Shown here in pieces: positions 17,635-22,129 of a stretch of DNA of 64,000 nucleotides. The position numbers were made by a program, and so were the translations under genes. Location: NCBI RefSeq assembly GCF_007923295.1, contig NZ_VOIR01000013.1, forward strand, positions 1 through 64,000. The letters run 5' to 3'. Source of the DNA: Agrococcus sediminis (GTDB lineage: Bacteria; Actinomycetota; Actinomycetes; Actinomycetales; Microbacteriaceae). The notes beneath the pieces were generated by a model, which had not been told where the DNA came from, searched no databases, and worked only from the letters and a program-made list of their open reading frames with translations. Each line of letters starts with the position of its first letter. Position 1 is the first letter of the stretch.

Positions 17635-17808
17635 CGCCCGTCGGCTACGCTCATCACGTCAGGCGCCCTCGCGCGCCGGTCTCGAGAAATGGGACCACGC
17701 GCATCCGCGCGCGACACACACGAACCCCATCGTCGAGGTTCCGTGCCACGTCGCGCCGCACCCGCTGCCGCGACCGTGGATGAGCCTCCGTCCCGCCCTG
17801 GAGTGCCC
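17635..17808 (+). promoter_or_regulatory. Leader region with several possible hairpins before the TPP enzyme
   Basis: A 174-base gap that should hold the promoter and 5' leader of the TPP enzyme. It contains GGCGC(6)GCGCC at 17662-17677, a CGCGC/GCGCG hairpin near 17697-17711 and GAACC(10)GGTTC at 17722-17741. The main frame is open through the second half, from ATG 17689, but that translation is Arg/Pro-rich and unlike the family. I recognise no known riboswitch class. Confidence 0.35.
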
Positions 17809-19488
17809 GTGTCCGACACCACCACCGTCTCCGCCGCCGTCGCCGCCGAGCTCGAGCAGCACGCGTCGCACGTCTTCGCCCTCATGGGCAACGGCAACGC
17901 CTGGTTCCTCGACGCCGTCGTGCGCCGCGGCGCCATGCGCGTCACCGCCGTGCGCCACGAGGCGGCGACGGTCGCCGCCGCCGACGCCTGCTTCCGCGCG
18001 GGCGGCGGGCTCGCGATCGCGACCACCACCTACGGGCCCGGCTACACGAACGCGCTCACGTCGCTCGCCGAGGCCGCGCAGGCACGGGTGCCGCTCGTGC
18101 TCGTCGTCGGCGACCAGCCGACCACCGGGCCGCGGCCGTGGGACGTCGACCAGGCCGCGATCGCGGCCGCGGTCGGCGTCGAGACGATCGTCGTCGGCAC
18201 CGGCGACGCGCGTGCCGCCGCCCGCCGCGCGGCGCAGGCGGCCCTCGTGGAGCGCCGCCCCGTCGTGCTCGCGCTGCCGTACGACCTCGCCCACCGGCCG
18301 GCGGAGGAGGAGACCGGTGACGTGGCCACGGCGGAGCGCGCGCCCGTGCCGCCGTTCATCGCGATCGACGCCGAGCAGCTCGCGGGCGTGGCGGCGCTGC
18401 TCGACGCCGCCGAGCGGCCGCTGCTGCTCGCCGGCCGCGGCGCGCACCTCGCGGGCGCGGCCGAGCCGCTCCGCGCGCTCGCCGCGCGGCTCGGTGCCCG
18501 CACCGCCTCCAGCGCGCTCGGCAGCGGCGTCTTCGCCGCCGACCACCGGCACCTCGGCATCTCCGGCGGCTTCGCCTCCGAGCGCGCCGCCGCCGCGATC
18601 GAGCAGGCGGATGCGGTGCTCGTCGTCGGCGCGGGCCTCAACCAGTTCCAGACGCGGTTCGGCGACGCCTTCGCGCCCGCCGCCCGCATCGTGCAGGTCG
18701 ATGTGCTCGACGCAGCCACGAACCCGCGGGTCGACGAGCTCGTGCGCGGCGACGCGCGCCTCGTCGCCGACGCGCTGCTCGCGCTGCTCGGCGACGGCGA
18801 CGCGCGCGGCGACGAGGGGTGGGCCGCGGCCGGCCTCGGCGACGTCACGGGCATCCACTTCGAGCGCGAGGCGGGGGAGCCGGCCGCGCCCGACGGGCGG
18901 CTCGACCCGCGCAGCCTCTTCCACGCGCTCGAGCGCATCCTGCCCGACGACCGCGTGGTCGTCTCGGACGGCGGGCACTTCATCGGGTGGGCGCCGACGC
19001 ACCTGACGATCGCCGACCCCGAGCGGCTCCTCATGGTCGGCACCGCCTTCCAGACGATCGGGCTCGGCTTCCCGAGCGCGGTGGGCGCCGCGGCGGCCCG
19101 GCCCGACGACACCCTCGTGCTCGTCTCGGGCGACGGCGGAGCGCTCATGGCGCTCGCCGACCTCGACAGCGTGGCGCGCACGGTGCGCCGCGGCGTGGTC
19201 GTGATCGTCAACGACGCCGCCTACGGCGCCGAGATCCACCAGTACGCCGTGCGCGGCGTCGCCGAGCAGCCCATGCTCATCGACCAGGTCGACTTCGCCG
19301 CGCTCGGCCGCGCCGTCGGCGCCGAGGGCGCGGTGATCGAGACGCTCGCCGACCTCGCGCAGCTCGAGGCCTGGCTCGCGAGCGGCGCCGAGGGCGTCTT
19401 CGTCGCCGACTGCCGCGTCTCGCAGCAGGTCGTCGCGCCCTACATGCTCGAGATCGTCGAGGCGGCGACCCGCGCCGCGGCCCGGTAG
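17809..19488 (+). CDS. Thiamine-pyrophosphate-dependent enzyme (acetolactate-synthase-like)
   Basis: A 559-residue enzyme of the acetolactate synthase / benzoylformate decarboxylase superfamily. The N-terminal PYR domain has the catalytic Glu in VRHEAATVAAADA; a central DHS-like domain follows; the C-terminal PP domain has the thiamine-diphosphate motif GDGGALMALADLD with Asn in VIVNDAAYG. The start GTG 17809 has GGAG five bases upstream. There is no regulatory-subunit gene (ilvN-like) next to it, so a role in valine/isoleucine synthesis is not supported; the substrate is unknown. Its stop lies one base from the stop of the opposing fusion gene. Confidence 0.85.
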   Translation: MSDTTTVSAAVAAELEQHASHVFALMGNGNAWFLDAVVRRGAMRVTAVRHEAATVAAADACFRAGGGLAIATTTYGPGYTNALTSLAEAAQARVPLVLVVGDQPTTGPRPWDVDQAAIAAAVGVETIVVGTGDARAAARRAAQAALVERRPVVLALPYDLAHRPAEEETGDVATAERAPVPPFIAIDAEQLAGVAALLDAAERPLLLAGRGAHLAGAAEPLRALAARLGARTASSALGSGVFAADHRHLGISGGFASERAAAAIEQADAVLVVGAGLNQFQTRFGDAFAPAARIVQVDVLDAATNPRVDELVRGDARLVADALLALLGDGDARGDEGWAAAGLGDVTGIHFEREAGEPAAPDGRLDPRSLFHALERILPDDRVVVSDGGHFIGWAPTHLTIADPERLLMVGTAFQTIGLGFPSAVGAAAARPDDTLVLVSGDGGALMALADLDSVARTVRRGVVVIVNDAAYGAEIHQYAVRGVAEQPMLIDQVDFAALGRAVGAEGAVIETLADLAQLEAWLASGAEGVFVADCRVSQQVVAPYMLEIVEAATRAAAR

Positions 19489-19489
19489 G

Positions 19490-21775
19490 TCACGCCGGCT
19501 CGTCGCCCTCGAGGGCGACCGGCTCGTCGCCCTCGTGCGCGACCGGCTCGTCGCCGCCGAGCGGCCGGTCGCCGAGCTCGAGCAGGCGCCGCAGCAGCTC
19601 GAGCACCTCCTCCGGCAGCAGCGGCTCGGCGACCGTCACGTCGCAGCGCGTCTCGACCGTCACGCGCCACAGCGGCGCGTCGGGCATCGCCTGGCCGTCG
19701 AGCGCCTCGAGGGCACCCGAGGCGACGAGGGTGTCGAGCCGCTCGCGATCCGCGCCGGGGATGGCCTCGAGCTCGAGCACGGCTGCGCGGGTGCGGCCGA
19801 GCATGCCGCCTGAGCGAGCGACCCGCACGGCGTCATGGGCCGCATCCGTCGGCGCCGCATCCGTCGGCGCCGCGCCGTCGCCGTGCGCCGGTCCGACCGC
19901 AGGCTCGAGCACGCCGACGGCCTCCCACGCGGCCCGCACCGCGCCGGTCTCGCGCGCGTCGTCGCCGTAGCGCGTGGCCGCCGCGGCGAGCGTGGCCTCG
20001 GCGAAGTCGCGGAAGCCGGCCGTGCGGGGGAGCGGGCCCGTGAGGGCGTCCATCCAGATGCGGCCCGGCGCCTCCCACGCGTGCCCGCCGATGGCGGTCG
20101 CCGCGAGGTGGAAGGCACGGTTGGGGATGCCGGAGTTGATGTGCACGCCGCCGAGGTCGTCGGTCGTCACCACGAGGTCGCGCATGTGGCCCGGCTGCGG
20201 GTCCTTGCCGAGCACCGGGTCGTCGAACGCGGTGCCGGGGGCGGCCATCGACCGGAGCGCCACGCCGCGCACGCGCTCGGTGAAGACCCCGGCACCGATG
20301 AGCCAGTCGGCCTCGTCGGCGCGCTGGCCGAGCGAGTGCTGCTTCACGAGCGCGCCGAGCACGTCGGCGATCGACTCGTTGAGCGCCCCGGGCTCGTCGC
20401 GGTAGACGAGGTCGGCGGTCGCGGAGATCACGCCGTGGCCGAGCTCGTGGCCGATGACGTCGACCGCGCCGGTGAAGCCAGCGAAGACCTCGCCGTCGCC
20501 GTCGCCGAAGACCATGCGCTCGCCGTCCCAGAACGCGTTGTCGTAGCGCTGCCCGTAGTGCACCGTCGCGAGCAGCGGCATCCCCGCCCCGTCGAGCGAG
20601 TCGCGCCCCAGCGCCTCGAAGAGCACGCGCCACGAGTCGCCGAGCCCGTCGAAGGCCTGGTCGGCCGCCGGGTCGCCGGTGGCCGGGTCGCCCTCGGTGC
20701 GCACCGGGTCGCCGGGCAGCGCCGTCGTGCCGCGCGCGTCGCTCACGATGCGGTGGGGCGCGGGGCGCTCGCCAGGCACGCGCGCGGGGGCGGGGGCGCG
20801 CAGCCCGCGATGCGCGGGCGCGGCGGCGCGCTCGGCGCGGATGCCGCGGTCGAGGCCGAGGGTGTGCGCGGCGACCGAGGCGGCGGGGCTGCCCGCCGCG
20901 GCGAGGCGCTCGAGCAGGAACGGCGGCACGATGCCGTGCCGCGCGGACGGGTGGGGCGCGCCGTCGGACTGCCGCTCGCGCAGCGCGCGCGCGATGCGCG
21001 GCGCGATGATCGCCGCCCAGTGCCGGTAGCCGGCCGCCGACGGGTGGAAGCCGTCGGATGCGTGCAGGTGCGGCTCGAGGATCGCGGGCGTCGGCAGGTG
21101 CAGCACGTGCGGCTCGGCGGCGGCGATCCGCTGCAGCACGTCGTCGAGGCTGCGGGCGTGGCCGCCGATGAGGGAGCGGATGGGCTGCGGCAGCCACTCG
21201 AACGTGTCGATCTGCGGCGCGCCGGCGAGGCCGAGCACGCCGCCGGGCGCGAGGCGCTGCTCGAGGCCGTCGACGAGCCCGCCGATCGCGCGCGCGAACG
21301 CGCGTCGGCTGACGAGCTGCAGCGCGTCGTTCGCGCCGACCAGCAGCACGATCGCGTCCCACGGGGCGTCGTCGGGCGCGCCGACGGCGGGCAGGTGCCG
21401 CTCGAGCACCTGCGCGGCATTCGAGCCCTCGAGGCCCTCGATGCGCCACGCGACCGGGCGGCCGCGGTAGCCGGCGACGAGCGCGGCGGTCTGCACGGCG
21501 AGGCTGTCGTCGAGCCGCTCGGCGCCGACGCCGGTCGCGGTCGAGTCGCCGATGACGAGCAGCCGCAGCGGCGCGCCGTCGCCCTCGCCGACGGTGCCCG
21601 CGCGCGTGCCCGCGGGCTCCGGCAGCCACACGAGCCCCGACTGCAGGCGCTTCGCCTGCCCCAGCAGCACCGGGGCGAGCGCGAAGGCGGCGGGGCGGGC
21701 GAGGCGGTGGAGCGCGCGCTCCGCGCGCCGGGCGGCGACCGCCGCGGTCGCCCCGATCCGTGCTGCCAGCTGCAT
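19490..21775 (-). CDS. Fusion protein: SGNH hydrolase - protealysin-like M4 metalloprotease - emfourin-like inhibitor
   Basis: A 761-residue single open frame. Residues 71-265 are an SGNH/GDSL esterase (Ser78 in VIGDSTATG, GAND at 147-150, Asp241/His244 in ASDGFHP). From about 279 comes a protealysin-type M4 protease: short propeptide with the PPFLL motif (284-288), zinc site HELGH (443-447), third ligand Glu467 in GALNESIADV, and His545 in GVHINSGIPNRAFHL. Residues about 649-735 (RVARSGGMLG...LPEEVLELLRRLL) resemble emfourin, the small protealysin inhibitor normally made from its own gene. The tail is an acidic repeat. There is no start codon of a separate protease gene at the junction and no signal peptide. 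Enzyme assignments are firm; the inhibitor domain is likely. Confidence 0.9.
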   Translation of the reverse strand: MQLAARIGATAAVAARRAERALHRLARPAAFALAPVLLGQAKRLQSGLVWLPEPAGTRAGTVGEGDGAPLRLLVIGDSTATGVGAERLDDSLAVQTAALVAGYRGRPVAWRIEGLEGSNAAQVLERHLPAVGAPDDAPWDAIVLLVGANDALQLVSRRAFARAIGGLVDGLEQRLAPGGVLGLAGAPQIDTFEWLPQPIRSLIGGHARSLDDVLQRIAAAEPHVLHLPTPAILEPHLHASDGFHPSAAGYRHWAAIIAPRIARALRERQSDGAPHPSARHGIVPPFLLERLAAAGSPAASVAAHTLGLDRGIRAERAAAPAHRGLRAPAPARVPGERPAPHRIVSDARGTTALPGDPVRTEGDPATGDPAADQAFDGLGDSWRVLFEALGRDSLDGAGMPLLATVHYGQRYDNAFWDGERMVFGDGDGEVFAGFTGAVDVIGHELGHGVISATADLVYRDEPGALNESIADVLGALVKQHSLGQRADEADWLIGAGVFTERVRGVALRSMAAPGTAFDDPVLGKDPQPGHMRDLVVTTDDLGGVHINSGIPNRAFHLAATAIGGHAWEAPGRIWMDALTGPLPRTAGFRDFAEATLAAAATRYGDDARETGAVRAAWEAVGVLEPAVGPAHGDGAAPTDAAPTDAAHDAVRVARSGGMLGRTRAAVLELEAIPGADRERLDTLVASGALEALDGQAMPDAPLWRVTVETRCDVTVAEPLLPEEVLELLRRLLELGDRPLGGDEPVAHEGDEPVALEGDEPA
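19495..19565 (-). repeat. 24-bp in-frame tandem repeat at the fusion gene's 3' end
   Basis: About three copies of a 24-base unit (plus strand ACCGGCTCGTCGCCCTCG plus a variable end) encode GDEPVAHE, GDEPVALE and GDEPA, preceded by a diverged GDRPLG copy. The result is a short acidic C-terminal tail. Confidence 0.85.
19840..19869 (-). repeat. 15-bp direct repeat in the protease-inhibitor linker
   Basis: Two perfect copies of CCGCATCCGTCGGCG side by side. They encode APTDA-APTDA in the linker joining the M4 domain to the emfourin-like domain, pointing to slippage-driven linker length change. Confidence 0.85.
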
Positions 21776-21832: not shown

Positions 21833-22129
21833 TCAGCGGCCGAGGCGCATCCGCACCCGCACCGGGTCGCCGACCAGGATGCCCTCCGCGCGCTGCACGA
21901 CCACCTTGAGCGGCAGCAGGTAGCCGCGGTCGCGCGGGAACAGCGAGGTGGTGAAGGTCGTGCCGCCGACCGTCGCCTCCACGGGGATGACGCCCCACCC
22001 GTAGGTGAGCTCGCGGGCGCTCTCGGCGATCAGCTCCGACTCGTCGGCGGGCACGGGTGCGAAGACGAAGGGGGCGGGGCCGCGCCACTCGATCGCGGTC
22101 GTGCTGAACTCGAGCTCCACCGTCGGCAC
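21833..22129 (-). CDS. DUF1905-family protein
   Basis: A 98-residue small beta-rich protein. The pattern VELEFSTTAIEW, FVFAPVPADES, TTFTTSLFPRDRGYLLPLKV and the terminal GDPVRVRMRL match the DUF1905 family, whose function is unknown. It runs divergently from the thioredoxin-fold gene across an 83-bp gap. Confidence 0.75.
   Translation of the reverse strand: MPTVELEFSTTAIEWRGPAPFVFAPVPADESELIAESARELTYGWGVIPVEATVGGTTFTTSLFPRDRGYLLPLKVVVQRAEGILVGDPVRVRMRLGR

Follow-up and report, generated by a model that had tools for sequence, protein, structure and literature searches.

The closest described system to the locus reported here is that of protealysin, an M4 protease of Serratia proteamaculans, and its companion inhibitor emfourin. 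Protealysin accumulates as an inactive precursor, and its first self-cleavage takes place inside the cell and removes seven N-terminal residues (PMC6778150). This first cut falls at Arg-Ser|Val-Ile, directly before the PPL motif, and the enzyme prefers hydrophobic residues at P1' and P2', with a weaker bias toward small or polar residues at P1 and charged residues at P2 (PMC6778150). Emfourin binds to protealysin in a 1:1 ratio, at the active-site region of the protease, and cells without emfourin show an earlier loss of optical density and contain less FtsZ (PMC9505478). In Serratia, emfourin is encoded by a separate gene in the protealysin operon, and in Microbacteriaceae the usual order is a short protealysin-like gene with a separate emfourin gene close behind it. 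The latter family also has SGNH/GDSL hydrolases encoded by stand-alone genes (L181-L205).

By contrast, in Agrococcus sediminis (Microbacteriaceae) the counterparts of all three proteins are joined in a single chain. The window analysed here (64,000 nucleotides, positions 1 to 64,000 of contig NZ_VOIR01000013.1) contains an ORF of 761 amino acids on the minus strand (19490-21775), with an ATG start and without an internal stop. The gene is present in a single copy in the genome, and the nearest named matches to the whole protein are from Agrococcus baldri strains. Pfam matches, all above their own cut-offs, are to Lipase_GDSL_2 (residues 74-251, 1.1e-16), Peptidase_M4 (373-450, 5.9e-24), Peptidase_M4_C (454-622, 1e-48) and Emfourin (652-731, 38.3 bits against a cut-off of 27). 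The assignment of an SGNH, a protealysin-like M4 and an emfourin domain in an earlier, sequence-only reading of this DNA was thus correct, and the catalytic residues it had named for both hydrolases are found in their motif blocks. The N-terminal residues 1-66 (21578-21775) are Arg-rich and, judging from the model and from hydrophobicity, form an amphipathic helical segment with no signal peptide or transmembrane segment apparent; protealysin of Serratia also lacks an evident signal peptide. At the other end, residues 737-761 and the stop codon (19490-19567) form an acidic tail built on an 8-residue repeat (GDEPVAHE). The underlying 24-bp tandem repeat (19495-19563, 2.9 copies) is absent in the other Agrococcus species compared.

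The SGNH domain (residues 67-267, 20975-21577) carries the blocks GDSTATG at 76, GANDA at 147 and DGFHPS at 241, which supply the catalytic set Ser78, Asn149, Asp241 and His244. The GDS, GxND and DxxH blocks are present in 17 of 17 Agrococcus SGNH domains; in the alignment showing them, some SGNH-only rows are partly misaligned over the protease, but the full-length model is still confident. Fold matches include esterases, among them EstL5 (8ik1, Z 21.3 over 189 residues), thioesterases and carbohydrate esterases. The domain is a putative SGNH-type esterase. The stand-alone family relatives and EstL5 share these blocks and this fold, and the stand-alone relatives show at most 46% identity to the Agrococcus domain. 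Tandem pairs of SGNH hydrolase relatives occur in three other genomes of the family (G071:C1:2201041-2202503, G133:C1:2431287-2432698 and G135:C200:3772-5254).

The M4 protease domain (residues 332-623, 19907-20782) contains HELGH at 443, GALNES at 463 and GGVHINSG at 542, giving the set His443/Glu444/His447, Glu467 and His545; the HExxH motif, the Glu and the His are invariant in 72 aligned proteases. The PPxL motif of the propeptide is PPFLL at 284, within IVPPFLL (282-288). Some 50 residues separate it from the mature domain, and the short protealysin-type propeptide that begins with IVPPFLL spans residues 282-331 (20783-20932, end approximate). The closest solved relative by sequence and by fold is the protealysin precursor (2vqx, E 3.8e-101), which belongs to the same protease subgroup and has the same type of short propeptide; residues 279-623 superimpose on it over 320 of 322 residues, propeptide included (Z 49.5, rmsd 1.1). 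In the alignment, the protealysin processing site RS|VIPP corresponds to H280-G281|I282-V283-PP, which is the esterase/protease junction. The two systems differ in that about seven residues precede the processing site in Serratia protealysin and a 281-residue esterase part does so in Agrococcus, and in that P1 is Ser in protealysin and Gly in Agrococcus. The flexible junction itself (residues 268-281, 20933-20974) ends at H280-G281, with the predicted cut after G281. The pattern [HRQ]G|IVPP is kept in 14 of 14 fused proteins, and the junction sequence is compatible with protealysin-type autoprocessing.

The emfourin domain (residues 649-736, 19568-19831) follows a low-confidence linker (residues 624-648, 19832-19906). 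The Emfourin family (PF20242) is matched at 38.3 and 42.8 bits, against the curated cut-off of 27, and the best solved profile match is the emfourin structure 6zyg, annotated as protealysin-associated protein, a weak match (E 0.08). Emfourin is absent among the matches listed by Foldseek and VIA-align, where the lists are filled by the protease and esterase domains. In most relatives emfourin is either the next gene to the protealysin-like protease or part of the same ORF. In both Serratia and Agrococcus it is the companion of the protease, with 1:1 inhibition known from Serratia; the Agrococcus domain, a putative inhibitor, differs in lying in the same chain. The full-length AlphaFold2 model has a mean pLDDT of 86.7 and a pTM of 0.70, with residues 272-277 before the propeptide under 50, as expected for a flexible linker. 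A model of the mature protease with emfourin (429 residues) has a pTM of 0.84. For a chain of which some two thirds is protease, this is above the value expected of a free-floating emfourin and suggests, with pTM as the sole measure, that emfourin may be placed confidently against the protease.

The fusion is not peculiar to the window. The same in-frame three-domain protein occurs in 14 of 24 Agrococcus species, the other 13 proteins being 72-77% identical to that of the window, and the genomes concerned include several single-contig assemblies, which rules out both chance and a local error in the sequence. Between the SGNH His block and the IVPP motif lie 26 to 55 residues, depending on the species and always in frame, and the linker is conserved in neither length nor sequence. 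The SGNH, M4 and emfourin parts are all under purifying selection, with dN/dS about 0.1-0.5 by the simple Nei-Gojobori method, applied here to very GC-rich DNA. A separate translation start for the protease in the window's species was considered and rejected: no ATG, GTG or TTG lies upstream of the propeptide at residues 260-281, and the sole in-frame GTG near the junction is V283, inside the IVPP motif. The sequence-only reading had taken the fusion for real and had seen no start for a separate protease gene, and both points hold. This is a genuine three-domain fusion with complete catalytic sets.

A DUF1905 gene (21833-22129, minus strand) lies 57 bp upstream of the fusion gene. All Agrococcus loci mapped have it next to the SGNH part, including that of G003, where the protease is elsewhere, and it is a possible operon partner of the fusion gene. 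On the other side, a convergent gene for an acetolactate-synthase-like TPP enzyme (17689-19490) ends 1 bp from the stop codon of the fusion gene, and no terminator-like sequence was found; the gene neighbourhood around the pair is conserved in Agrococcus. A scan for promoters and terminators found no signals.

Among the relatives, protease and emfourin share one ORF in 29 of 128 loci scored, a set biased to the best matches and including two Agrococcus loci, and these 29 belong to several actinobacterial lineages. The one-chain proteins of Knoellia, Nostocoides, Terrabacter and Micropruina (L081, L084, L098 and L092) resemble in this respect the protease-emfourin proteins of three Agrococcus species (G007, G008 and G013) and, unlike the Agrococcus fusion, have no N-terminal SGNH domain. 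The joining recurs in L060-L063 and L081-L126 and possibly arose more than once. The union of protease and emfourin was accordingly set aside as the novelty of this locus, and the earlier view of it as an unusual part does not stand; the N-terminal SGNH domain alone is Agrococcus-specific. No SGNH-protease fusion or adjacency was found outside the genus among 300 genomes of the family and 396 of the phylum, which are samples in which a first look may miss divergent fusions, and no such fusion was found in the 80 best loci of a genome-contig search. A long match in G226 contains no SGNH match. Protealysin-like protease matches also occur on contigs filed as viral (L159-L163), which show protease matches only. 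The sequence-only reading's remark that no described system is known to have this order agrees with these samples, in which no other lineage with SGNH, protease and emfourin in this order was found. In the paper library searched, nothing on metallopeptidases of Agrococcus or on a fusion of this kind turned up. The SGNH fusion has thus been seen only in Agrococcus: the domains are all from known families, and their order is new and kept across most of one genus.

Since the aligned protealysin cut site coincides with the esterase/protease junction, self-processing should free the esterase, which sits where protealysin has the peptide that it sheds in its first cut. We give about an even chance to the reading that the fusion is a polyprotein that processes itself, with the esterase set free and the pro-protease left attached to its inhibitor. 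The first cut would be made in the cell by the protease, directly before the PPxL motif (H280-G281|I282-V283), and would separate residues 1-281, the esterase, from residues 282-761, the pro-protease with emfourin. Removal of the propeptide (roughly 50 residues) at a later stage would yield a protease still tethered to emfourin, which would be quiet in the cell and become active once the inhibitor is displaced or removed, e.g. after lysis. The tethered emfourin might, on the other hand, block self-processing. The disordered linker predicted before the conserved [HRQ]G|IVPP favors the self-processing reading; against it, the site has Gly at P1 in place of the Ser of protealysin, and retention of IVPP is not specific to the fusion, because the motif is conserved in unfused proteases too. 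The earlier idea of a self-restrained enzyme released by cleavage is plausible, and the alignment now provides it with a precise candidate site. Somewhat more tentatively, the protealysin precursor may be regarded as a built-in self-cleaving linker, its leader replaced by a whole enzyme that is freed by the first autoprocessing step, with the protease under the control of a covalently tethered inhibitor.

The strongest alternative, which we hold to be possible though distinctly less probable, is a stable bifunctional protein from which the esterase is never released. The fusion would then serve only to fix a 1:1 expression ratio or to bring the two enzymes together, and IVPP would be kept for folding and inhibition of the protease, not for cutting. 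Because IVPP is also conserved in the unfused proteases, its presence does not demand cleavage, and fusion would simply replace the translational coupling seen in two species, G004 and G020, through an ATGA overlap. Against a stable chain, the aligned site of protealysin undergoes intracellular cleavage (PMC6778150), the linker before IVPP is predicted to be disordered, and the two halves are apart in three species, so that a permanent link is not essential.

The unfused species bear on how the fusion arose. G004 and G020 each have one gene for the esterase and another for the protease-emfourin protein, with a 4-bp ATGA stop/start overlap between the two, and a ribosome-binding sequence (AAGGAG or AGGAG) precedes the protease ATG. 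The linker of the fused G002 gene still contains an ATGA; the sequence after it, GTG AGC GAA CCG, resembles the protease start ATG AGC GAG CCG of G004, and in the tree G002 branches off ahead of its fused sisters, with moderate support (92/89). In most other fused species, including that of the window, no internal ATG or GTG remains that could be used. The overlap in G004 and G020, together with its remnant in G002, indicates that a small shift of frame joined the members of a coupled pair, and it is likely that the fusion arose from such a translationally coupled (ATGA-overlapping) gene pair. In G003 the halves are unlinked, at 0.98 and 2.32 Mb, and the conserved gene block is broken exactly between them, and the outgroup (G007, G008 and G013) contains protease-emfourin only. 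At least 3-4 changes between fused and unfused states are needed on the Agrococcus tree, a number at which repeated fusion and fusion followed by splitting look alike genus-wide; whether the ancestral state in Agrococcus was fused or unfused is uncertain. The sequence-only reading had linked separate genes in close relatives to a possible sequencing error; such genes do exist, in G003, G004 and G020, but they mark an evolutionary route instead of an error.

This route also suits a neutral, drift-like fusion, in which the stop codon of an overlapping pair was lost with little functional meaning and the enzymes act separately. The ATGA overlap of G004 and G020, with its trace in G002, makes for a simple path, separate versions persist in G003, G004 and G020, and the linker is not conserved. 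The frame is nevertheless intact in 14 species, which cover most of the genus, despite many linker indels, and no usable internal start is left in most fused species; we consider neutrality improbable. Far less likely is a self-protected antibacterial or post-lysis effector, with the protease as toxin, emfourin as immunity and the esterase as accessory: the same role has been proposed for protealysin and emfourin (PMC9505478), but an inhibitor that is part of the effector chain would go wherever the effector goes, defeating the purpose unless removed, and neither an export signal nor adjacent secretion-system genes were seen. A joining of two genes by sequencing or assembly error, which would fit with the halves being separate genes in different frames in G004 and G020, is scarcely credible and already refuted by the same in-frame fusion in 14 genomes of different species.

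If the self-processing reading is true, the Agrococcus protein would be an example from nature of a bacterial polyprotein in which the built-in protease, regulated by an inhibitor on the same polypeptide, sets a second enzyme free. Agrococcus contains the fused, the overlapping and the unlinked version, making the steps of the fusion and the effect of the cis-inhibitor directly testable. The esterase would also offer a new partner for studying the still unsettled physiological role of protealysin-like proteases.
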